A stretch of DNA of 38,787 nt from Hydrogenobacter sp. Its GTDB lineage: Bacteria > Aquificota > Aquificia > Aquificales > Aquificaceae. The DNA is taken from assembly GCA_041287335.1 (NCBI GenBank), contig JBEULM010000063.1, positions 1-38,787 on the forward strand. The letters are read 5' to 3'. Below are positions 21,132-34,047 of this stretch, piece by piece. Under the pieces are notes generated by a model. The model was not told where the DNA came from. It did not search any database and saw only the letters and a list, made by a program, of their open reading frames with translations. A program made the position numbers and the translations under genes. Every line of letters begins with the position of its first letter. Position 1 is the stretch's first letter.

Positions 21132-22414
21132 GAGCTATATACCTTTTTAAAAGAGACCTAAGGATAAGGGACAACAGAGGGATCTGCGAGGCTTCAAGAA
21201 ATTTTAAAGAACTTGTGCCTATTTTCATCTTTGACCCTAAGATAATAGAAGAGTTAAAAGCTCAAGGAGAGAGGCTCTATTATGTCTATAGAGCGGTAGA
21301 GGAGCTTTTAAAGAGCATAAGGCTTTACTGCTTCTACGAAGATACAGAAAGTGCTATAAGGAAAGCCATAAAGGTTGCAAAGCCAAAGGCTCTATACACA
21401 ACCACTTCTTACAGCTGGAGCGGATTGCAAAGGCAGGAAGTAATAAGAAAGGTATGCAAAGAGGAAGGCGTGGAATTTGTGGAGTTTTTTGAAAACTTTT
21501 TAGTAAAGCCTGAGAAAGTGCCACTCAGAAAGGTATATACACCCTTCTATAAAGAATGGATAAAGGACTTGTACTTAGAGACGTGTGAAGTGCAAAGCTT
21601 TGAAGTGCCAGCCCTTGAGCTTCCCACCCTTGAAGATATAAAAAAGGAGCTTCCCATAAAACCCTTTGGAGCCTTTGACCCATCAGAGTGTGAAAAAAGG
21701 CTTGAAAGTTTTAACTTTGAAAGCTACGAAAGGCTCAGAAACTATCCTGCCCTTGATGGCACCTCCAAGCTCTCTCCTTGCATAAGGTTTGGTATACTCT
21801 CTTTAAGACATATATACAAAAAGGCAGAAGGTAGGAGCGAGCAGTTTATAAAGGAGCTTGCCTGGAGGGAGTTTTGGTACCACATAGCTCTACACTATCC
21901 AGAGGTAAGGAACTTAGAGTTTCAGGAAAAGAGAAGAAGCATAAGGTGGGAAAACAGGGAAAATTTCATAGAGGCTTTCTTTGAGGCAAAAACGGGCTAC
22001 CCCTTTGTGGATGCGGGCATCTTGCAGCTAAAAACAGAAAAGTGGTTACACAACAGGATGAGGATGGTACTTGCCAGCTTTTTGACAAAAGTGCTACTGG
22101 TGGATTGGAGGATAGGAGAAGCCTTTTTCAAGGAGCACCTTTTAGACTATGATGAGATAGTAAATGCAGGAAACTGGCAGTGGTCTGCCAGCGTGGGAGC
22201 AGACCCTAAACCATTCAGGCTCTTTAACCCCATCCTGCAAGCCCAGAGGTATGATCCAGAGTGCAAATACATAAAAAGATACCTACCAGAGCTTTCTTCT
22301 TATCCTTGTGAAGAGCTTTTAGACCCTCTTAGGCATAGACTTACTTACCACAAACCTGCGGTAAATTATTATGAGAGAATAAATATGGCAAAAAGCCTTT
22401 ATAGGAATTTTTAA
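21128..22414 (+). CDS. phrB: DNA photolyase / cryptochrome family protein
   Basis: 428 residues with both domains. The N-terminal Rossmann-like domain opens IYLFKRDLRIRDNRGI. The FAD-binding helical domain has LDGTSKLSPCIRFGILSLRHI, ELAWREFWYHIALHYPEV, TGYPFVDAGILQL, WLHNRMRMVLASFLTKVLLVDWRIGEAFF, DYDEIVNAGNWQWSASVGADPKP and RLFNPILQAQRYDP. These are hallmarks of class I CPD photolyases, including the NW.W pair that touches the dimer. It would repair cyclobutane pyrimidine dimers using light; 6-4 or cryptochrome activity is less likely. The start is TTG, overlapping the preceding stop. Light-dependent repair implies exposure to sunlight in surface hot springs. Confidence 0.93.
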   Translation: MRAIYLFKRDLRIRDNRGICEASRNFKELVPIFIFDPKIIEELKAQGERLYYVYRAVEELLKSIRLYCFYEDTESAIRKAIKVAKPKALYTTTSYSWSGLQRQEVIRKVCKEEGVEFVEFFENFLVKPEKVPLRKVYTPFYKEWIKDLYLETCEVQSFEVPALELPTLEDIKKELPIKPFGAFDPSECEKRLESFNFESYERLRNYPALDGTSKLSPCIRFGILSLRHIYKKAEGRSEQFIKELAWREFWYHIALHYPEVRNLEFQEKRRSIRWENRENFIEAFFEAKTGYPFVDAGILQLKTEKWLHNRMRMVLASFLTKVLLVDWRIGEAFFKEHLLDYDEIVNAGNWQWSASVGADPKPFRLFNPILQAQRYDPECKYIKRYLPELSSYPCEELLDPLRHRLTYHKPAVNYYERINMAKSLYRNF

Positions 22415-22415
22415 A

Positions 22416-22921
22416 ATGAACCAAAATTTAAAGAAGTGTATTGAACTATATGCGACAAGTGAAGTAGAGTTTTTTCAATTTCTCAATAGTTTGTCAAAGC
22501 CAGACATCCAAGCGGTGCTTATAGACCTGCTTACTGTGTACTTCAATGATAAGAATTCTTCTACTCTTCGTGAGCTTGTTTCTTTGTATATTGCAGGTTT
22601 TGAACCAAGCAAGAAAAAGTTAGGATATAAATTTCTTGCCTATATATATGAAAAGCTACATTGTGAAGTTAAGCCAGTAAATACGGATAGCATTAAAAGA
22701 AAGCTTAACAGACAGAAGAGTTTTAATGACTATACATTCTTGTAAGCGGTTTTGTTGAAGGTCAATTGATTTATCTGTTTTCCTTTGAATTTAGATATCT
22801 TGAGGGAAAACTTAAAGAACTACTTAAAAATAAATTTGGTGAGGATTTTGATAGTGAAGATTTTGAAAGGGAAAAAGGGAACCATCTGATGTCTGCTCGG
22901 TATAATATTTGTAAGGGATGA
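22416..22921 (+). pseudogene. Frameshifted gene, probable restriction endonuclease remnant
   Basis: Frame 1 runs from ATG 22416 for 109 codons to TAA 22743-22745. A second frame open from 22730 to TGA 22919-22921 continues it: NDYTFL at the end of frame 1 joins VSGFVEGQLIYLFSFEFRYLEG in the other frame. One indel near 22735-22745 restores about 165 residues. The second part has a K/E/D-rich stretch and ends NHLMSARYNICKG, after which both strands show only stops. No PD-ExK motif is certain; the restriction-enzyme call rests mainly on the DNA methyltransferase remnant 50 bases downstream. It lies immediately after the photolyase gene. Confidence 0.5.
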
Positions 22922-22971
22922 CTGAGAAAATTATAAAGACTATCTCTATAAAGATATTGTGGAGGTGCTAA

Positions 22972-23514
22972 ATGAAAGATATAAAAGAATTTCTTAATAA
23001 AGTAATATGTGGAGATGTTTTAAAAGTTTTAAAGGAAATACCTGCTGATAGCATTGATTTAGGCATAACATCTCCGCCCTACAATAAAAAGGAAAAGCAT
23101 GGTGGCTGGCTTGTGCCAACTATGGAGTGGCTTACAAAAACAAAGTGGAATATATGGCAGGAGATAATTTGGAACAGGAAAATTGCGGGAAATATCAGAG
23201 GTTGGAGGTTTTGGCAAGTAGAAGAGAGAATTTACTGGCTTGTGAAGGGAAAACCCAAGCTCACTTCTATATGGGAGATGCGCCCATTTTGTGGAACTGG
23301 CACAACTTTCGTATCAGCTAAGCTTTTAGGAAAGCACTACATAGGCATTGATATCTCTCCAGACTATACTGCTTATGCGGAAAAAAGACTTATGGAAGCA
23401 GAAAAGGAAAAGTACAGGGTTTTGAAAGAAATAAGCCTTCATACTACAGAGCTTACTTTTGAGGAAAGGAAGAAAAGAGGAATGTGGAGCATAAAAATAA
23501 AACACGGGAGGTAG
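22972..23514 (+). pseudogene. DNA N4/N6 methyltransferase with in-frame internal deletions
   Basis: 180 residues, much shorter than the usual 280-350. Motif IV (SIDLGITSPPYN), IWQEIIWNRKIAGNIRGWRFWQVEERIYWL and motif I (PFCGTGTT, then LGKHYIGIDIS) are in the order of beta-class methyltransferases. Two blocks are missing without breaking the frame: after TSPPYNKKEKHGGW, where about 40 residues normally lead to the WLxKTKW segment, and between SIWEMRP and PFCGTGTT, where the HPAPFP..LVLDP region should be. A complete enzyme needs LDPFCG; here the preceding strand is gone, so it should be inactive. GGAGG lies six bases before the ATG, and tmk follows after seven bases. It may still be translated. 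Confidence 0.7.
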
Positions 23515-25615: not shown

Positions 25616-26629
25616 ATGGTGAAAAGATTCCTTGTTTTTGCGCTCACCTTTTCTCTACTGCACGCTCAAACGGTCCTTGTCCCCATACCTGGACAGCCTC
25701 AACCCAAACCTCAGCCTCAGCAGTCGCAGGGAAGTGGAGGCTCGGATCTCGGTGCCTTTTTGGGTGGATTATTGGGTGTGGGTTTGCTATTCCTTTTGAC
25801 AAAAGCGGTATTTTCAAAACCTTCAAAACCTCAAAAAATGGCTTTTGTTCCCTTTGAGTTTATAGCATTACATAAGGCGGAACTTCCAGAGGATCTAAAA
25901 GTGATAGATAGGGAGAGCTTTGAAGGTTATACGCTGTCGCTTATAAGGTGGGAGGAAGATAGCCAAAAACTTGAAGAGAAGACCAAAGGTAAGGTACTTT
26001 TACTTGAGCCAAACTATCTATACGAACTATACGGGAATGAGGGGGTTTTATCTAATGTAGAGAGTAAAGAGATAGCGTTTCCCTCAACCGTTGTTGCGCT
26101 GTTGGATACGGGAGTGGATGAGAACCTTTTGGGACACGCCATACTTTTTGTAAGAAATATAAGGAGGGATAGCTACAAATCGGAAAAGCATGGAACAGCT
26201 GTGGCTTATCTCGCACATGAGCAGAAGGGAGCAAAGTTAGCCATATACAGGGTATGTTCAGAAGGTGTGTGTGACGGCTGGAGTGTTGCGAAGGCTTTAA
26301 TAGATGTTTTTAAAGAAGGAATAAAAATTGTAAATATGTCTTTCGGAACAGATAAAGAAGATAAGATAGTTGCCTTTATCATAAAGGGTATGTCGCTTAA
26401 GGGTTTTGTCTTTGTAGCGCCTGTAGGGAATAACTCATCCGATCAGCTTCCCTTTCCGGCAAGACTTGAAGAGGTAATATCTGTTGCGGGAAAACCCTGC
26501 TTTCCGGAAAGAATCTGTATTAGAGCAAAAGCAAAAGAGGAATACAAAGACTTACATACACCTGTGGGTAAGGTCACGGGAACTTCTTTTTCATCTGCGA
26601 TACATGCAGGAAAAATGGTGTCTAACTAA
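25616..26629 (+). CDS. Membrane-anchored subtilisin-like (S8) serine protease
   Basis: 337 residues. A signal peptide (1-17), a Pro/Gln-rich segment (22-43) and a membrane helix (about 45-66) precede a compact protease domain. The triad is visible: D164 in VVALLDTGVDEN, H192 in SEKHGTAVA and S324 in GTSFSSAIHAG. VNMSFGTD and the oxyanion-hole region APVGNNSSD are also present. The usual Pro after GTSxxx is absent, and the protein stops 13 residues after the catalytic Ser. Residues 75-155 may form an inhibitor-like propeptide or linker. It probably acts outside the inner membrane. It overlaps the permease gene by four bases tail to tail. Confidence 0.82.
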   Translation: MVKRFLVFALTFSLLHAQTVLVPIPGQPQPKPQPQQSQGSGGSDLGAFLGGLLGVGLLFLLTKAVFSKPSKPQKMAFVPFEFIALHKAELPEDLKVIDRESFEGYTLSLIRWEEDSQKLEEKTKGKVLLLEPNYLYELYGNEGVLSNVESKEIAFPSTVVALLDTGVDENLLGHAILFVRNIRRDSYKSEKHGTAVAYLAHEQKGAKLAIYRVCSEGVCDGWSVAKALIDVFKEGIKIVNMSFGTDKEDKIVAFIIKGMSLKGFVFVAPVGNNSSDQLPFPARLEEVISVAGKPCFPERICIRAKAKEEYKDLHTPVGKVTGTSFSSAIHAGKMVSN

Positions 26630-27390
26630 AGCACATCGTAAAAACCCTTTTTCAGAAATTTGTAAACAAGCACTCCAGATACAATAGATAGACACGATAC
26701 GATCACAGATATCAAAAAGACAGTCATATTCAAGTATCCTTGAAGTAAGGTGGTTTGCACATTCCTGAGTATGTAAAAGAGCGGATTAAATATAAGGAAA
26801 GGTCTTAGAACTTCTGGTACATAAGAAACAGGGTATATGATGGGTAAGGAGTAAAAGACAAAACTCAAAAGTGTTGAAACCACTTGGGAGATATCCCTCA
26901 CATAAACGCACAGACTTCCCAAAAGGAGAGAGAGACCTACTACGAAAGATAGCTCCACAAATAGAGCCAAAAAGAGTAGTGGTATGTGTTTCAAACTGTA
27001 AGGAAAATCTTTAAGCACCAAAGCGTAGCCAAGAGATACAAAAGTATAAATGAAACCTGTAGTAGTAGAAGCGAGTATAAAAAGATAAGGAGGTACAGAA
27101 GTTTTCTTAAGTAGATAAGCGTTATCTGTTATAGCGTTCATGCCTTTGAGTAAAGATTGGTTAAAGCCGTTCCAGAAGGCAAGTCCCGCAAGAAGATAAA
27201 CTGTGTAACTTGCACCGTCAGTAGCATCTGGTGGAAACTTCGCCTTGACTATATGCTGGAATATCAAGTAAAAAACACCTGTCATGAGTAGCGGATTCAT
27301 AAACATCCATAGAGTCCCAAATACCGAACCGGCAAAGGACATCTTGATGTCTCTCTTGATAAGTTGATAAAGTACGTAAGGCGTGTGCAT
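26626..27390 (-). CDS. ABC-2 type permease (polysaccharide / lipid-linked glycan export, Wzm/KpsM type)
   Basis: 254 residues with about six membrane helices. The N-terminus LIKRDIKMSFAGSVFGTLWMFMNPLLMTGVFYLIF and NPLFYILRNVQTTLLQG near the end are typical of O-antigen or capsule ABC-2 permeases. These pump undecaprenyl-linked glycans or teichoic acids together with a Wzt/KpsT ATPase, which is not in this window; the ATPase at 18857 is of a different class. No Shine-Dalgarno; TATAAT at 27404-27409 on the minus strand suggests a leader of about seven bases. Confidence 0.85.
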   Translation of the reverse strand: MHTPYVLYQLIKRDIKMSFAGSVFGTLWMFMNPLLMTGVFYLIFQHIVKAKFPPDATDGASYTVYLLAGLAFWNGFNQSLLKGMNAITDNAYLLKKTSVPPYLFILASTTTGFIYTFVSLGYALVLKDFPYSLKHIPLLFLALFVELSFVVGLSLLLGSLCVYVRDISQVVSTLLSFVFYSLPIIYPVSYVPEVLRPFLIFNPLFYILRNVQTTLLQGYLNMTVFLISVIVSCLSIVSGVLVYKFLKKGFYDVL

Positions 27391-27450
27391 TTTAAATAGA
27401 AAAATTATAGCATTATTGTAAGAGGTGTGACAAAATTACTCTACTTTTAC

Positions 27451-27464
27451 ATGATTTGTATCAT
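27451..27464. promoter_or_regulatory. Crp/Fnr-like operator upstream of dapF
   Basis: ATGATTTGTATCAT, with arms ATGAT and ATCAT and a 4-base centre. Its centre is 42.5 bases before the dapF ATG, identical to the HIT box at 1560-1575. It is 61 bases upstream of the divergent permease start. Confidence 0.5.
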
Positions 27465-27487
27465 ATCAATGAAGCTTGATAATGGGA

Positions 27488-27493
27488 GATAAT
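27488..27493 (+). promoter_or_regulatory. -10 hexamer of dapF, leaderless start
   Basis: GATAAT exactly at -12 to -7 from the ATG at 27500, as for the HIT gene. GGGAG nearby at 27484-27488 is 11 bases away from the ATG and overlaps the -10, so it would not be in the transcript. Confidence 0.45.
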
Positions 27494-27499
27494 GATCAC

Positions 27500-28339
27500 A
27501 TGAGGTTTGTTAAGCTTCATGGTTCTGGAAATGACTTTGTAGTTTTTGACAACAGGCAGGGGGAAGTTTATAAATTTTTAGAGGATTCAAATATCAAATT
27601 GAGGGATTTTGTTGTCAAGGTATGCGCTTTACATACAGGTGTGGGTGCTGATGGACTTATACTCATAGAAAACCCAGACGATCCTGAAAGCGACTTTAAA
27701 TGGCAATTTTTCAACTCGGACGGATCTGTAGCAGGTATGTGCGGAAACGGCTCAAGATGTGCGGTGAGATTTGCATACGAAAACGGTATTGTGGATAAAA
27801 AGGTAAAATTTGAGACATTAGTAGGTGTTATAGAAGCTGAAGTTTTGGATGAAGGCAAAAGGGTAAAGGTACTCCTCACCGAACCTCACAGTTTTAAAAA
27901 CATGCATATACGTGTAAAGGACAAAGATATAAAAGGTTACTACATAAACACGGGCGTACCCCATTTTGTAGTGATCGTTGATGATCTTGAGGAGTTTGAT
28001 GTTGTAAGTTACGGAAGGGAGATAAGGTTTCATGAAGTTTTCTCTCCAAGTGGAACTAACGCAACTTTCATGAAAGTAAACTCCGAAGGTAGTGTAAATA
28101 TAAGGACATACGAAAGAGGTGTGGAAAACGAGACGCTCGCCTGTGGTACAGGTGCTGCAGCGTCAGCCATAGTAGCGTATACACAAGGTCTTGTCAAGAG
28201 AAAACCTATTGAAGTGAAAACAAAGGGTGGGGATATTTTAAGAATTGATTTTGACAATAACCTCAAAAGGGTGTTTTTGGAGGGTAGTGTGTACAAAGTC
28301 TTTGACGGTTTTCTCTATAAAGAGGCTCTTCATTACTGA
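27500..28339 (+). CDS. dapF: Diaminopimelate epimerase
   Basis: 279 residues from ATG 27500 (MRFVKLHGSGNDFVVFD), the canonical N-terminus; upstream TTG 27476 and ATG 27482 would add residues not found in the family. The two catalytic cysteines are in GMCGNGSRCAVRFA and ETLACGTGAAASA. It interconverts LL- and meso-diaminopimelate for lysine and peptidoglycan. A Crp/Fnr-like box and a -10 abutting the start suggest activation and a leaderless message. The arsenic genes follow 44 bases later with a separate -10. Confidence 0.95.
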   Translation: MRFVKLHGSGNDFVVFDNRQGEVYKFLEDSNIKLRDFVVKVCALHTGVGADGLILIENPDDPESDFKWQFFNSDGSVAGMCGNGSRCAVRFAYENGIVDKKVKFETLVGVIEAEVLDEGKRVKVLLTEPHSFKNMHIRVKDKDIKGYYINTGVPHFVVIVDDLEEFDVVSYGREIRFHEVFSPSGTNATFMKVNSEGSVNIRTYERGVENETLACGTGAAASAIVAYTQGLVKRKPIEVKTKGGDILRIDFDNNLKRVFLEGSVYKVFDGFLYKEALHY

Positions 28340-28370
28340 TTTGTATAATACTGCATAAAAAATTTTTATA

Positions 28371-28376
28371 TATACT
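28371..28376 (+). promoter_or_regulatory. -10 hexamer of arsR
   Basis: TATACT at -13 to -8 from ATG 28384, predicting a one-base leader. An AT-rich near-palindrome (28555-type A/T run at 28356-28369) overlaps the promoter and could be the ArsR operator. No Shine-Dalgarno is seen. Confidence 0.4.
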
Positions 28377-28383
28377 TTTCCTT

Positions 28384-28662
28384 ATGAAGTCCACATTGAA
28401 AGAGGGAGAACTATTAAAAGCCTTTTACGCCCTTTCAGATCCAGTAAGACTTGGTATAATTAAGATCCTGCTTGATTGCAAAGAACTCTGCGTATGTCAA
28501 ATAACGGAGGCTTTCAAACTATCCCAACCCAACGCATCTTTCCATCTTAGGATACTCAAAGAAGCCGATTTGGTCATCTGTGAAAAAAGGGGAAGGTGGA
28601 ACTATTACAAAGTGAATACACAAGACGAACTCATAAACCTTATCGCTCATACTGCGAGGTAA
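28384..28662 (+). CDS. arsR: ArsR-family arsenite-responsive repressor
   Basis: 92 residues, a single winged-helix domain: ALSDPVRLGIIKILL, then the metal-sensing ELCVCQI with C36 and C38 (C32 nearby), the recognition helix LSQPNASFHLRILKEADLV and the wing CEKRGRWNYYKV. ELCVC is the classic As(III)/Sb(III) site of ArsR. Metal binding releases it from its operator, inducing the genes that follow. It heads arsC, a small redox protein, an arsP-like permease and arsB, all in one direction with short gaps. Confidence 0.92.
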   Translation: MKSTLKEGELLKAFYALSDPVRLGIIKILLDCKELCVCQITEAFKLSQPNASFHLRILKEADLVICEKRGRWNYYKVNTQDELINLIAHTAR

Positions 28663-28666
28663 ATCC

Positions 28667-29116
28667 ATGAAGATAGGCTTCATATGCACAGGGAATTCTG
28701 CGAGGAGTCAGATGGCAGAAGGCTATGCAAAATACTTTGCTAAACTTTACAAAAAGCAAGTGGAGATTTATTCTGCAGGTTCATCTCCTGCTGAATGCAT
28801 CCATCCTCTTGCTGTAAAGGTAATGCAGGAGGAAGGCATAGATATATCTTCTCAACACCCCAAATCTATTGAGAGTATACCCTATTGGGAACTTGACATT
28901 GTGATAACCCTTTGCGGAGATGCCGCAGAAACATGTCCTTATCTGCCTGGCGTACGTTCCGAACACTGGGGGCTTCCTGATCCTGCAAAGGCTCAAGGCT
29001 CACAAGAAGAGAGATTGGAGTTTTTTAGAAAGGTTAGGGATGAGATAAAACTAAAAGTTGAGAATCTTATAAAGGAGCTGAAGGATGAAGAGTATAAAGA
29101 TAATAAGCGCATCTGA
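28667..29116 (+). CDS. arsC: Arsenate reductase, LMW-phosphatase type (thioredoxin-coupled)
   Basis: 149 residues. The P-loop is C7-TGNSAR-S, as in low-molecular-weight tyrosine phosphatases. C83 and C90 in ITLCGDAAETCPYLPG are the redox pair of the Staphylococcus-type ArsC, followed by SEHWGLPDPA. It reduces As(V) to As(III), with thioredoxin regenerating the C83-C90 disulfide. The gene starts four bases after arsR and overlaps the next gene, which encodes a small CxxC protein, by 32 bases. That neighbour is a candidate electron donor. Confidence 0.94.
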   Translation: MKIGFICTGNSARSQMAEGYAKYFAKLYKKQVEIYSAGSSPAECIHPLAVKVMQEEGIDISSQHPKSIESIPYWELDIVITLCGDAAETCPYLPGVRSEHWGLPDPAKAQGSQEERLEFFRKVRDEIKLKVENLIKELKDEEYKDNKRI

Positions 29117-29331: not shown

Positions 29332-30253
29332 ATGTTTGAAGTCTATGAAAAGTTTGCGGACCTCCTCGTGTATTCGGTTTTCAAACTTGAAAAGGGTCAG
29401 AAAATTGCGGAGGCTCTTCACTTCTTCCTTTATGACACGCTAAAGATATTTACCCTTCTGAGCCTCGTGATAATCCTCATGTCCTTTGTTAGAAGCTATT
29501 TTCCCCTTGAGAAGACAAGAAGAATACTTTCAAGACACAAAGCAATAGCACTGCCCCTCTCCGCTCTGCTTGGTGTATTAACGCCCTTTTGTTCCTGCTC
29601 AGCGGTTCCCATGTTCATAGGCTTTGTAGAAGCTGGCATACCCCTGAGTGCCTCCTTCACCTTTTTAATAGCTTCGCCTATGGTTAATGAGATTGCCTTA
29701 GGTCTTTTACTCTCTCTTTGGTCTCAAGGTGGCTTTAGCCTATCTGTTTTTTGGTGTAAGCGTTGCCATACTGTCAGGATACCTAATAGAAAGGTTAAAG
29801 CCTGAAAAACTCATAGAGGACTATGTGTTTAGCATAAAGCTGGGAGAGGTTGAAGAAAGGAAGATGACCATAAGAGAAAGAATAGAATTTAGCTACTCAA
29901 ATTTAAAGAATATCCTTAGAAAGGTAGGACCCTATATAGTGGTGGCAATAGGCATAGGTGGTTTTATACACGGATATGTGCCTCAAGATATAGTTAAAAG
30001 TATAATGAAACACACAGGCTTTTTCTCAGTTTCTTTTGCGGTGCTTATATGCATACCCCTTTACTCCAACTCTGCAGGTGTGCTTGTGTCTATGGATATA
30101 GCTTTGGCTTTTATGATGGCTGTAACCGCTCTTTCCTTTCCTGAGTTTGTGATCCTTAAACAAGTGATGAAGTCAAAGCTCATGGCCATATTTGCGGTCA
30201 CAGTAGGTATATCCATAATCACTGAAGGGTATCTTTTTAATCTTCTCTTTTGA
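29332..30253 (+). pseudogene. arsP: ArsP/DUF318-like permease with a single frameshift
   Basis: Two overlapping frames together make one permease of about 306 residues. The first (29332-29805) carries the conserved TPFCSCSAVPMFIGFVEAGIPL and SPMVNEIALGLLL, then turns into nonsense after LSLW. The second, one base later in frame, continues LKVALAYLFFGVSVAILSGYLIERLKPEK to the stop at 30251-30253. One extra base near 29713-29722 explains both. ArsP-type permeases export trivalent organoarsenicals, and other DUF318 members move other metalloids. Possibilities are a real mutation, an assembly error, or recoding; no strong slippery heptamer is seen. The conserved parts show no further damage, so the shift is recent or artefactual. 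Confidence 0.75.
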
Positions 30254-30257
30254 AGCT

Positions 30258-31562
30258 ATGGAAAAATCGTTGGCTGTAGCTGTTTTTATCCTTACTATGA
30301 TATCCGTTATACTCAAGCCTAAGGGTATAGGTATAGGTTGGTCCGCATGGGCAGGAGCTTTGGCTTGCCTCCTTTTGGGTATAATATCCCCCCGTGACAT
30401 CCTCTACATTACAAAGCTTGTATGGGATGCTACTTTGGCTTTTGTCTTTCTGATTTTTATCTCCATAATTTTAGATAGATCCGGATTTTTTGAGTGGACA
30501 GCTCTCAAAGCTATAGGTTATGCAAAAGGTAATGGATTTTTACTTTTCCTGTATCTTATGCTTTTGGGTGCTTTTATATCGGCAATATTTGCCAATGATG
30601 GAGCTTCTTTAATGCTCACTCCCATCATATACTCAAAAATAAAGCATTTAAGACTTCCTAAGCGGATGATCCTTCCATATATAATGGGTAGCGGTTTTAT
30701 CGCAGATACCGCAAGCCTTCCCTTTGTCATCTCTAATCTCACCAACATAATAACAGCTCACTTTTTTAAGATAGATTTTTGGAGATACGCCTTCTTTATG
30801 TTCTTGCCTAATTTGGTGTCAGTGCTTTCAAGTATAGCGTTGCTTTACATCTTTTACAGGAGGGATATGATAAAAAGGTATGACACGGATATTCTTGAGG
30901 ACTTTCCATCCAGATACGCAATAAGGGATCCACTCCTTTTTAAAATAGGTTGGACAGTTATAGTATTTCTCGGTGCATCCTTTTTACTGTTAGAACTTTA
31001 TAAAATCAAGTTCCCCTTTTCTGTTATCTTTGGTGTATCGGCTTTCATTCTTTCCCTTTCTACGTTGAAAAATAGAGTAGTTAAAACGAAAGAAGTTCTC
31101 AGGTTTACCCCTTGGAGTATAGTGTTTTTCTCTATAGGCATGTATACTGTAGTATACGGCTTGAAGAATGTAGGTGTTACTGCCTTTTTAGCGGATACGA
31201 TCTCATACTTTTACAGATTTGGTGATGCTTATGCTCTTCTGGGTACAGGTTTCTTGTCAGCCCTTCTTTCCGCTTTGATGAACAACCTTCCTACTGTTAT
31301 GGTTATGAATATCTCCATACAAGACGTTAGCTTACCAAGAAGACTTATGGAATTTCTCGCTCTCGCTAATTTGGTGGGTACCAATATCGGACCAAAACTG
31401 ACACCTATAGGCTCCTTAGCTACGCTCCTTTGGTTGCATGTGCTGGAACACAAAGGTATAAAGATCTCATGGCTGTATTATATAGAAGTAGGCTTCGTTC
31501 TTACAATTCCAGTGCTTATCGCTGTTTTATTAACTCTGTATTCTGTTTATCGTATAACATAA
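30258..31562 (+). CDS. arsB: Arsenite efflux permease ArsB
   Basis: 434 residues with about 11-12 membrane helices. The ArsB/NhaD-type signature is clear: IFANDGASLMLTPIIY, GSGFIADTASLPFVISNLTNI, and NLVGTNIGPKLTPIGSLATLLWLHVL near the C-terminus. It extrudes As(III)/Sb(III) using the proton gradient, or ATP when paired with ArsA, which is absent here. It begins five bases after the arsP stop and completes the arsenic group. Confidence 0.93.
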   Translation: MEKSLAVAVFILTMISVILKPKGIGIGWSAWAGALACLLLGIISPRDILYITKLVWDATLAFVFLIFISIILDRSGFFEWTALKAIGYAKGNGFLLFLYLMLLGAFISAIFANDGASLMLTPIIYSKIKHLRLPKRMILPYIMGSGFIADTASLPFVISNLTNIITAHFFKIDFWRYAFFMFLPNLVSVLSSIALLYIFYRRDMIKRYDTDILEDFPSRYAIRDPLLFKIGWTVIVFLGASFLLLELYKIKFPFSVIFGVSAFILSLSTLKNRVVKTKEVLRFTPWSIVFFSIGMYTVVYGLKNVGVTAFLADTISYFYRFGDAYALLGTGFLSALLSALMNNLPTVMVMNISIQDVSLPRRLMEFLALANLVGTNIGPKLTPIGSLATLLWLHVLEHKGIKISWLYYIEVGFVLTIPVLIAVLLTLYSVYRIT

Positions 31563-31591: not shown

Positions 31592-31804
31592 ATGAAAGGA
31601 AAAGATTTTTTAGCTCTCACTGTGGGTTTTAATCTTTTGGGTGGTATAGTCGCTGGTCTTATCGTAGGTTACGCCTTTGACAAATGGCTAATGGAAGGTA
31701 TTTTTAAAGTCAGGAGCTTCCCAATAGGTCTCATGTTTTTTTTCTTCATTGGTATAATTTCCGGATTTTGGAATGCGTACAAAGATCTAAAAAGGCTTTC
31801 TTGA
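31592..31804 (+). CDS. AtpZ/AtpI-like small membrane protein
   Basis: 70 residues from ATG 31592. Two membrane helices (about 5-27 and 44-61) flank a short loop. GFNLLGGIVAGLIVGYAFDKWL and FPIGLMFFFFIGIISGFWNAYKDL match the AtpZ/AtpI family, which helps assemble the c-ring of F-type ATP synthase or carries Mg2+/Ca2+. In many bacteria it heads the atp operon; here no atp gene follows. A TATAAT at 31574-31579 predicts a leader of about six bases. It might also be cotranscribed with arsB (30-base gap). Confidence 0.7.
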   Translation: MKGKDFLALTVGFNLLGGIVAGLIVGYAFDKWLMEGIFKVRSFPIGLMFFFFIGIISGFWNAYKDLKRLS

Positions 31805-31809
31805 CATTT

Positions 31810-31825
31810 TGGCAAAGCTTTGCCA
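31810..31825. promoter_or_regulatory. Perfect 16-bp palindrome, possible enhancer site
   Basis: TGGCAAAGCTTTGCCA reads the same on both strands. It is centred about 106 bases upstream of the transcription start predicted from the sigma-54 promoter at 31898-31913, a usual distance for an NtrC-type activator. It is flanked by two copies of TTGACAT (31801-31807 and 31828-31834). It might instead act as a terminator for the preceding gene, but no T-run follows. Confidence 0.5.
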
Positions 31826-31897
31826 CTTTGACATAAGCAAAACTTACCAACCCTAAAGCTACTAATTGAAACACAAAGTTTTTATGAATAAGGTGTT

Positions 31898-31913
31898 TGG
31901 CATCTTTTTTGCA
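31898..31913 (+). promoter_or_regulatory. Sigma-54 (RpoN) promoter, -24/-12
   Basis: TGGCAT, five bases, TTGCA: the GG (31899-31900) and GC (31911-31912) are separated by ten bases, as required for sigma-54. Only one base departs from TGGCAC-N5-TTGCA. Transcription would begin near 31923, just before AAGGAGG and the ATG at 31940. An upstream palindrome at 31810-31825 could bind the activator. Confidence 0.65.
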
Positions 31914-31939
31914 CATATGCGCTAAGGAGGTAGGCTTTT

Positions 31940-32446
31940 ATGGATAGGAGAACATTCTTCAAGTTTACCGCTTTGCTCGGTTCTGTTCCTTTGCTAAACA
32001 GGGTTGTTTATTCAGCACCCTTGAAAATAGGTTTTGGAGATATAAAGAAGGAAACCCCTATAGCGGTTGTTTATCACTGTGACTTTCCCCAAGAAGCGCG
32101 CTTTGAAACCATGCTTACCAACATAGGAAATCACCTGTCCGTTTACGATAATGATCCTTTCAAAATAAAAATAGTTGTTGTAGCTCATGGTCCCGGTGTG
32201 AAGTTCTTTTTAAAGGATCTTTCGGGAAGCCCTTGGGAAAATGAACCAATAAATCTTTCGGAATTTGAAAGGAGGGAAAGGGATCTCACACTTTACGGTG
32301 TTGAGTACTATATATGCAACATAACTCTTGGAAGACTCAAGCTAAATCCCGAAAAACTTTATGACTTTACAAAGATAGTACCTTCAGGCGTTGGTGCCAT
32401 AGGTGAGCTTCAGGCAAAAGGTTTTGGTTACATAAAAGTTCAGTAA
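31940..32446 (+). CDS. Tat-exported DsrE-like protein
   Basis: 168 residues. The N-terminus MDRRTFFKFTALLGSVPLL is a twin-arginine signal, so the protein is exported folded. The mature part fits the DsrE/DsrF-like family of COG1416: IAVVYHCDFPQEARFETMLTNIGNHL, FKIKIVVVAHGPGVKFFL, VEYYICNITLGRLKL and VPSGVGAIGELQAKGFGYIKV. C126 is at the position of the persulfide-carrying Cys, and C47 is a second Cys. Family members handle sulfane sulfur. AGGAGG is nine bases upstream. It is placed behind a sigma-54-type promoter and 11 bases before a porin gene, suggesting a periplasmic role in sulfur use. Confidence 0.8.
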   Translation: MDRRTFFKFTALLGSVPLLNRVVYSAPLKIGFGDIKKETPIAVVYHCDFPQEARFETMLTNIGNHLSVYDNDPFKIKIVVVAHGPGVKFFLKDLSGSPWENEPINLSEFERRERDLTLYGVEYYICNITLGRLKLNPEKLYDFTKIVPSGVGAIGELQAKGFGYIKVQ

Positions 32447-32457
32447 GGGAGGAGAAC

Positions 32458-34047
32458 ATGCGAAAGGGTATCTTTTTAGGTTCAGGCTTCTTAGCATTAT
32501 CACTTTTCTCGCCGGACTTTGCTCACGCCATTAGACTTTCTGGTCCTGCTAAAGAGCAGTATTTAGACATCAACTTCTTGATGCAGTTATGGTTTAGACA
32601 TCAGGACATAAGTTCCCAAAATAGACCTAACTTTATAAATGCCAGTGACAGGGATGATATCTTCTTCAGAAGGATAAGGTTGAGGTTTTTCGGAAGTGCT
32701 TCTTCTTGGTTTAAGTTCAATTTGGTCATTAGGGACAACGATTTTGGAAGGGATCCGTACGATGCCCCCTTCGGCGGACAACCTACGCACTCAAAAAGAC
32801 AGAGTAACAGGAATACTGGATATATACATGAATTTGACGCGATCTTAGTTCCGAGTGCTATGATGGACACAAAGGGCGTCACCTTAGATTTACATCTTGG
32901 TTATCCGAGAGTACCTTTGGGAAGAGAACAGTTTCAGAGGGCTTACGATAACATAGATTTGGATAGGACAAATGCAAGTTTGAGGTGGGCTCACCTTGCA
33001 ATAGGTGATGTAACTGGCAGAGCCTTTGGAGGTTATGCGCACGTGCAGGCTTCCAACAGAGGAACAGGTTACTCAAAGCTAACTCTTGACGGTTTTGTAG
33101 GTGTTTTTGGAGGATTCAAAAATGTAAAGAACCCTTGGGATGAATCCATAGTAGGTGTGAGTACGAACACTCCCCTTTGTGGATATACGTCCCCAAATCC
33201 GGCGATTGCTACATGCCTATCAAAAGCGAGAGGTAATGCTTCGGATAACTTTCTTTACACTTTTAGAGCTACGCTACAGCTGGGAGAACCTGAAGGTAAA
33301 CCAGTAATATATAACTGGCTTTACAGGGACACTTACATAGGAAAAAGGAGAGGCATCACCTTAGGTGTTTCTTACGCCTTCCAGAACAAAATAGACCAAC
33401 ACATCATCACAGACACGCAAGGTATATCTCCAGGCTTTCTCGGAAATGGCTCACCTTTTAACGGTGCTGGAACGGTAAATGTGAGGATACCATACTTATT
33501 GCTTCCCAATCCTGTAGGTGTGGGAGATCCTAACGTAGCAAACAGACTTTTGGACAACAGAGTTGATATGAAGTTTTACGGTATTGACTTTGCCTGGCAT
33601 CACGGTCCATTATCTTTTGTAGCTGAGGTAGGGCAGGTAAAGTTCAATAACTTACTGCTCGTTGATGGTGCAAACAACCTGTATCCTGGTAGAAGCATAA
33701 AAAATGACTTCTGGCTTGCTAAGGTAGGTTACGTAATAAATCCCAATGCTGTACACAAGTTTGAGCCTTATCTTAGTTACTCAGAATACAAGCCACAAAT
33801 AATTACTGTAGGAACAGGTAGCAATGCGAGGCTTTACGGTGATGCAACCGACTTTGTTGGTAACAATCAATTAACTTCAGGTCAAGATAAGTCAAGCTTG
33901 GGAAGAATAAAGCAGATAGGTGTTGGTATAAACTACTACTACAGGAGTGAAAATTTCAGGTGGACCATAGAATACACAAGATTTGACGAACAGAGAAACA
34001 AGATAAACAACGATGCGATAAGCGTTCAGTTTCAGTGGATTTTTTAA
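32458..34047 (+). CDS. Outer-membrane porin
   Basis: 529 residues. A signal peptide (about 1-24, ending FAHA) precedes alternating aromatic/polar strands throughout: RRIRLRFFGSASSWFKFNLVIRD, GKRRGITLGVSYAFQN, IDFAWHHGPLSFVAEVGQVKF, FRWTIEYTRFDEQ and the terminal ISVQFQWIF with a C-terminal Phe, the Bam recognition signal. The early DDIFFRRIRLRF segment recalls OprO/OprP-type and short-chain porins. It probably forms a 16-18-stranded barrel; the solute is unknown. GGGAGGAG is just before the ATG. Co-transcription with the DsrE-like gene from the sigma-54 promoter suggests passage of an anion such as a sulfur oxyanion, which is inference. Confidence 0.88.
   Translation: MRKGIFLGSGFLALSLFSPDFAHAIRLSGPAKEQYLDINFLMQLWFRHQDISSQNRPNFINASDRDDIFFRRIRLRFFGSASSWFKFNLVIRDNDFGRDPYDAPFGGQPTHSKRQSNRNTGYIHEFDAILVPSAMMDTKGVTLDLHLGYPRVPLGREQFQRAYDNIDLDRTNASLRWAHLAIGDVTGRAFGGYAHVQASNRGTGYSKLTLDGFVGVFGGFKNVKNPWDESIVGVSTNTPLCGYTSPNPAIATCLSKARGNASDNFLYTFRATLQLGEPEGKPVIYNWLYRDTYIGKRRGITLGVSYAFQNKIDQHIITDTQGISPGFLGNGSPFNGAGTVNVRIPYLLLPNPVGVGDPNVANRLLDNRVDMKFYGIDFAWHHGPLSFVAEVGQVKFNNLLLVDGANNLYPGRSIKNDFWLAKVGYVINPNAVHKFEPYLSYSEYKPQIITVGTGSNARLYGDATDFVGNNQLTSGQDKSSLGRIKQIGVGINYYYRSENFRWTIEYTRFDEQRNKINNDAISVQFQWIF

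Follow-up and report, generated by a model that had tools for sequence, protein, structure and literature searches.

The contig analysed here (the window, meaning the whole stretch of 38,787 nt from Hydrogenobacter sp.) carries a perfect sigma-54 promoter before the genes of an exported DsrE-like protein and a porin, and the question it raises is which activator acts there, through which DNA site and on behalf of which cargo. The locus is very likely governed by a system of binding protein, sensor kinase and NtrC1, which would switch on a two-gene operon encoding a Tat-type exported DsrE-like protein and an OprO/P-like porin. Comparison of sequences, as set out below, establishes which parts make up this system and how they are conserved, that operator and regulatory genes co-occur across genomes, that the candidate activator is an ortholog of NtrC1 and that the genes are linked in many relatives.

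The promoter, TGGCAT-N5-TTGCA with the spacer CTTTT, lies at 31898-31913 on the plus strand and matches the consensus TGGCAY-N5-TTGCW exactly, with the -24 GG at 31899-31900 and the -12 GC at 31911-31912. The exact GG/GC spacing claimed for it in the initial annotation is borne out, and 26 orthologous DsrE-like genes have the site at the corresponding place, 39-59 nt 5' of the ATG, with the GG of the -24 element and the TTG of the -12 element invariant in all 26 loci. It is the only exact consensus in the 38.8-kb window. Further RpoN sites, which the same annotation had proposed to look for, do occur in the 1.67-Mb genome: there are 11 exact ones including that of the window, and in ten of the 11 cases an ORF starts 26-54 nt 3' of the site. 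Exact sites also precede the genes for P-II (glnB), NifH and LpxC, all known sigma-54 targets. When up to one mismatch was allowed, the whole genome gave 106 matches against 40 for a reversed control pattern. Absence of rpoN had been named as evidence against the promoter; the gene is intact, encoding 414 aa with an ARRTVAKYR box. The genome also contains nine strong matches to NtrC-type activators, while three weaker matches were taken for other AAA+ proteins, one of them a ClpB-like ORF within the window. Among the other exact sigma-54 sites, one (L067, G000:C37:16374) stands before a Tat-type Rieske-domain protein, and two (L065 and L066, G000:C23:2209 and 2398) form a divergent pair with two lipoprotein-like genes downstream.

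Transcription from sigma-54 promoters starts 11-12 nt after the -12 GC, and from this established geometry the start is predicted at 31923-31924 on the plus strand. The Shine-Dalgarno sequence AAGGAGGT (31924-31931, plus strand) would then occupy the extreme 5' end of the predicted leader, with the ATG at 31940, in agreement with the earlier claim of a ribosome site right after the predicted start. The elements listed in the initial annotation are thus real and the stretch is functional sequence, with the palindrome forming part of a larger unit described below.

Could the operon instead be expressed constitutively, by read-through from ars genes or from a sigma-70 promoter, with the sigma-54 site incidental? 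A sigma-70-like site with 10 of 12 matches lies upstream at 31677-31704, and no terminator-like site was seen between the upstream genes and the operon. However, such promoter-like sites are no commoner than chance (4, vs 5.3 in shuffles), and the upstream neighbours change between genomes whereas the sigma-54 site and the operator stay constant; constitutive expression is thus very improbable. The upstream neighbour in the window is ArsB (30258-31562, plus strand), the end of an ars gene block. Among the genomes examined, this block stands upstream solely in the window's genome and in G004, for which reason it was not counted in the unit, and membership of the operon in an arsenic operon was rejected, the ars neighbourhood not being conserved in other relatives. 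Between ArsB and the promoter lies a short AtpI-like ORF (PF09527; 31592-31804, plus strand), whose final 3 bases fall within the operator and which is not conserved as a neighbour beyond the genus. No sulfur gene was found among the conserved neighbours. The ArsP-type permease of the ars block is split in the window into overlapping ORFs (29332-29805 and 29729-30253) that represent halves of PF03773. In G004 it is a single 317-aa ORF (L101:5021-5974), and the split reflects a frameshift or an assembly error.

We then come to the DNA site through which an activator might act. The initial annotation had described a perfect palindrome between two TTGACAT copies; these elements are exact, with the palindrome TGGCAAAGCTTTGCCA at 31810-31825 and the TTGACAT copies beginning at 31801 and 31828, but the true unit is a pair of tandem dyads of the form TGNCA-N3-TGNCA. 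The predicted operator (upstream activator sequence), TGACATTTTGGCA-AAGCTT-TGCCACTTTGACA, spans 31802-31833, is the sole exact copy in the genome and comprises dyad A, TGACA-TTT-TGGCA (31802-31814), and dyad B, TGCCA-CTT-TGACA (31821-31833). The palindrome consists of the right half of dyad A, the spacer and the left half of dyad B: TGGCA and TGCCA, the inner half-sites, are opposed across 6 bp that happen to read AAGCTT. The outer half-sites of the double dyad correspond to the TTGACAT copies. With at most one mismatch, the operator is present upstream of the 26 orthologs compared, its dyads lying 6, 7 or 8 bp apart for a total of 32-34 bp. The specified columns of the dyads are invariant in the 26 loci, except for one T to C change in one genome. 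Since the spacer differs between genomes in both sequence and length (6-8 bp) while the dyads are constant, the palindrome was rejected as an independent operator. Searched alone with up to three mismatches, the palindrome is expected 0.21 times in the window by chance, and copies of it, which the annotation had suggested to look for, were found at 12 places in the genome vs 2 for the control, which is weak evidence taken alone.

The double dyad is far beyond chance. Its exact form (16 specified bases, spacer of 5-9) occurs once each in 21 of 136 Aquificota genomes, a reversed-pattern control gave no match over the 136 genomes, and when the region upstream in the window was shuffled 400 times, the nearest approach had 3 mismatches. 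In every one of the 20 assembled cases, the exact operator lies 83-139 bp 5' of the ATG of a DsrE gene; in the 21st the contig ends. The centres of the dyads are 19-21 bp apart, about two helical turns, a spacing as would be expected for two adjacent dimers of a Fis-type activator. Distances from operator to promoter cluster at 71-73, 83-86, 94-98 and 108 bp across the 26 loci, whose sequences are mutually related, and are best fitted by a period of about 12 bp, longer than the usual 10.5; helical phasing of this distance is only suggestive.

The evidence points to NtrC1 as the likely activator of the predicted operator. Directly 5' of the operator in many relatives (e.g. loci L041, L093-L098, L104, L172-L174 and L177) lie genes for a PF04392 binding lipoprotein of about 320 aa, a sensor kinase of about 640 aa and an NtrC-type response regulator of about 435 aa, the last with a receiver domain, a sigma-54 AAA+ domain and a Fis-type HTH. 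Neighbouring genes of this trio mostly overlap, by 4 bp; in G063 one extra ORF separates the regulator from the operator. In G007, the operator-linked regulator and Aquifex aeolicus NtrC1 (PDB 1ny5, 4l4u) are 100% identical, and G007 is therefore taken as A. aeolicus; its operator reads TGTCAGACTGGCA-AATTTT-TGCCAAAATGGCA.

The initial annotation had proposed to look for a nearby or co-conserved NtrC-family activator. The candidate adjoins the operator in related genera, but in the window's own genome the trio lies on another contig, C20, entirely on the minus strand, with the binding protein (PF04392) at 28094-29050, the sensor kinase at 26193-28097 and the NtrC1 ortholog, 61% identical to that of A. 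aeolicus, at 21896-23245; three other genes stand between kinase and regulator. In a tree, the C20 regulator, NtrC1 and the regulators linked to the operator form a single clade (support 99/97), and the eight other activators of this genome fall outside it. The trio of G004 is likewise arranged around an argJ-like gene and its neighbours, remote from the operon, and G002 and G003 have their genes for binding protein and kinase in such an argJ-like setting away from the operon.

This unlinked arrangement in the window's genus lends something to another explanation, namely that the sigma-54 promoter is real while a different one of the nine activators, or else a separate repressor, acts on the operator, the linkage to NtrC1 being incidental. 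Genus g8 is also compatible with it, as an NtrC-type gene near the operon there is not an NtrC1 ortholog. Against it, the trio directly adjoins the operator in many relatives from several genera, the presence of the operator goes along with that of the binding protein, the marker of the NtrC1 trio and thus of the one activator system followed through all 136 genomes, and parts of the trio decay together with the DsrE and porin genes in G001. We consider this explanation improbable and retain NtrC1 as the candidate activator. The g8 genome G011 keeps the operator, the DsrE and porin genes, the binding protein and the kinase, and no NtrC1 ortholog was seen there beside the operon or the binding protein-kinase locus (L181:4067-6993, L099:11270-12607). 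The NtrC-type gene near the g8 operon was considered as NtrC1 and excluded by the tree, in which that row has a long branch.

The co-occurrence was followed across the 136 genomes with the binding protein as the marker of the NtrC1 system. The exact operator is present in 21 genomes, the binding protein in 30 and both in 19, so that the marker accompanies 19 of the 21 exact operators (Fisher p of about 1e-13, and about 6e-7 within the family, statistics that ignore kinship). The two operator-bearing genomes in which the binding protein was not found, G018 and G047, are assemblies of 96% and 78% completeness. One-mismatch operators were sought among the genomes carrying the binding protein, and seven of the 11 binding-protein-only genomes (G002, G003, G004, G041, G046, G055 and G063) have one before the DsrE gene; in G048 and G053 the contig ends first, and G001 and G023 have the binding protein as fragments only. 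A genome with the binding protein and no exact operator thus has the one-mismatch version in every case where its DsrE locus is intact and fully assembled.

G001 belongs to the same genus as the window's genome, and its DsrE, porin, binding-protein and kinase genes are all fragments, at two separate places (L102, L182). Such co-decay is the pattern expected if the parts work together, and this genome would have lost the entire system in nature. In addition, of 18 loci checked where a DsrE gene lacks the operator, 17 have no adjoining porin. The remaining one, from another family (L028:1495-3494, G038), pairs DsrE and porin with neither the operator nor a recognised adjacent regulator, and the DsrE-porin pairing is therefore independent of the predicted regulation. 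Interrupted frames were seen in the porin of A. aeolicus (L098:8093-9612, G007) and in both the porin (L093:7857-9437) and the binding protein (L093:3076-3983) of G005, where DsrE stays open; they may stem from sequencing error, from phase variation or from genuine decay.

The binding protein matches PF04392, and no ABC permease or ATPase was recognised beside it on C20, so that sensing is a likelier role for it than uptake. Gene order suggested an AioXSR-type (PhnD-like) system, which was set aside on account of this PF04392 membership, and assignment as the TrpX binding protein (NF041285) failed at 73.6 bits, below the equivalog cut-off of 390. The kinase has PAS, HisKA and HATPase domains and a faintly Cache-like outer domain.

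The first gene of the operon (31940-32446, plus strand) encodes the 168-aa DsrE-like protein, which starts with the twin-arginine motif MDRRTFFK and matches PF02635 (4e-11; 43.5 bits, cut-off 22.7). Its model (pLDDT 89.5) has MTH1491 as the closest solved fold (1l1s, TM 0.93 over its length). R3, R4, Y45, H46, D48 and Cys126 are invariant in 42 DsrE orthologs, and R3 and R4 belong to a predicted Tat signal, MDRRxFFK followed by a hydrophobic stretch. The DsrE fold, the twin-arginine motif and the invariant Cys126 support the original reading of this product as an exported DsrE-like protein. Cys126 aligns with a cysteine of MTH1491, at the active-site position of the family, and is probably the working thiol, since some genera have Ala in place of Cys47.

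The adjoining porin gene that had been proposed is indeed present: 11 nt after the DsrE stop begins a gene for a porin-like protein of 529 aa (32458-34047, plus strand). No Pfam match was obtained for this porin, and in the porin of L096 the OprO/OprP family PF07396 scored 15.5 bits, under the cut-off of 20.9. A low-confidence model of the putative barrel (pLDDT 59) gave OprO and OprP as the best PDB matches. Ten of 12 porin orthologs show a weak match to ExtI, and membership of the ExtI family (NF040900) was rejected for the window porin, at 53.4 bits against an equivalog cut-off of 150.

What passes through this porin is a separate question. A sulfur compound, e.g. a sulfur anion or polysulfide, is the most plausible cargo or ligand, as the thiol chemistry of DsrE proteins speaks for a thiophilic species, be it reduced sulfur or another; the resemblance of the porin to OprO/P and ExtI allows an oxyanion. 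The regulation could indeed be just as proposed with phosphate, arsenate or selenite as the cargo in place of reduced sulfur, an alternative that competes with the cargo guess only. Its case is that the porin is closest by fold to OprO/OprP (in the low-confidence model) and by sequence to ExtI, which is implicated in selenite and tellurite reduction (PMC5877670), with ars genes upstream in two genomes. Yet that ars neighbourhood is not kept in other relatives, and both the invariant thiol and the DsrE fold suggest a thiophilic group, sulfur or another, leaving the oxyanion a substantial chance that still falls short of even.

Under the regulation that we favour, with NtrC1 as activator, the PF04392 lipoprotein would sense a small periplasmic molecule, and the signal would pass through the membrane sensor kinase to NtrC1. 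Phosphorylated NtrC1 would bind both tandem TGNCA-N3-TGNCA dyads, loop to sigma-54 polymerase at TGGCAT-N5-TTGCA and open the promoter, so that the direction of control would be activation. A solute, probably anionic, would then cross the outer membrane by way of the porin; in the periplasm, it or a product of it may be handled by the DsrE-like protein through Cys126. In a stronger version, which we regard as rather unlikely, NtrC1 would have this operon as its only or principal physiological target, and in Aquificaceae the system would be a sensor dedicated to zero-valent or reduced sulfur (e.g. polysulfide). If true, it would be a first example of a regulated outer-membrane import route for such a sulfur compound, with a Tat-exported DsrE carrier.

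NtrC1 is among the structurally best-studied AAA+ activators, and a natural operator would tie its structures to a DNA site. The system also offers a chain from signal to output, running from periplasmic binding protein and kinase through NtrC1 to a porin and an exported DsrE protein, and in Aquificota that oxidise hydrogen and sulfur it would make the crossing of the outer membrane by a poorly soluble or anionic substrate experimentally approachable. In the passages on NtrC1 consulted in open-access papers, the protein serves as a model for structural work and no target operon is given. A literature search by Aquifex locus tags gave unrelated papers among the matches listed, and the main text of a 2025 sigma-54 regulon survey has no mention of DsrE or porins.

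Systems of binding protein, kinase and NtrC-type regulator, as well as paired activator sites, are already known kinds. In A. aeolicus, as reportedly described by Vidangos et al. in 2014, NtrC4 acts on lpxC from two activator sites about 60 bp apart upstream of a sigma-54 promoter. The present case is alike in having two activator sites and a sigma-54 promoter in the same bacterial group, and the window's genome has the lpxC site too, but activator and target are different and the dyads here lie 19-21 bp apart, centre to centre. In TorT-TorS-TorR and AioX-AioS-AioR, a periplasmic binding protein without its own transporter feeds a two-component system. That arrangement is shared here, whereas the binding protein is of the PF04392 (TrpX-like) rather than the TorT or PhnD-like kind and the output is DsrE plus porin.

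The DsrE-porin pairing, which the initial annotation did not recognise as described, is conserved in the family and has a precedent of sulfurtransferase-like protein and porin in Geobacter, where ExtH, a rhodanese, and ExtI, a porin, are encoded together (PMC5877670). Both systems join a sulfurtransferase-type protein to a porin, and one stretch is recognisably common to the two porins (53 bits, cut-off 150); the present system differs in having no cytochromes, DsrE in place of rhodanese and sigma-54 instead of Fur control. In Sulfurovum, some porins are raised on elemental sulfur, but these are OprD-like (PMC10045233), and in Thioalkalivibrio under arsenite DsrE/F-like genes go up or down (PMC6620896). 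MTH1491 and ST0148 (PDB 1l1s, 2pd2) have the DsrE-like fold and the conserved cysteine position in common with the window's protein, but are short chains of 108-113 residues without the N-terminal export signal region. Lastly, A. aeolicus NtrC1 itself (PDB 1ny5, 4l4u, 1zy2), to which the regulator in G007 is identical and of which the window's genome has an ortholog, is known for its structures and mechanism, and is here linked to a candidate target operon.
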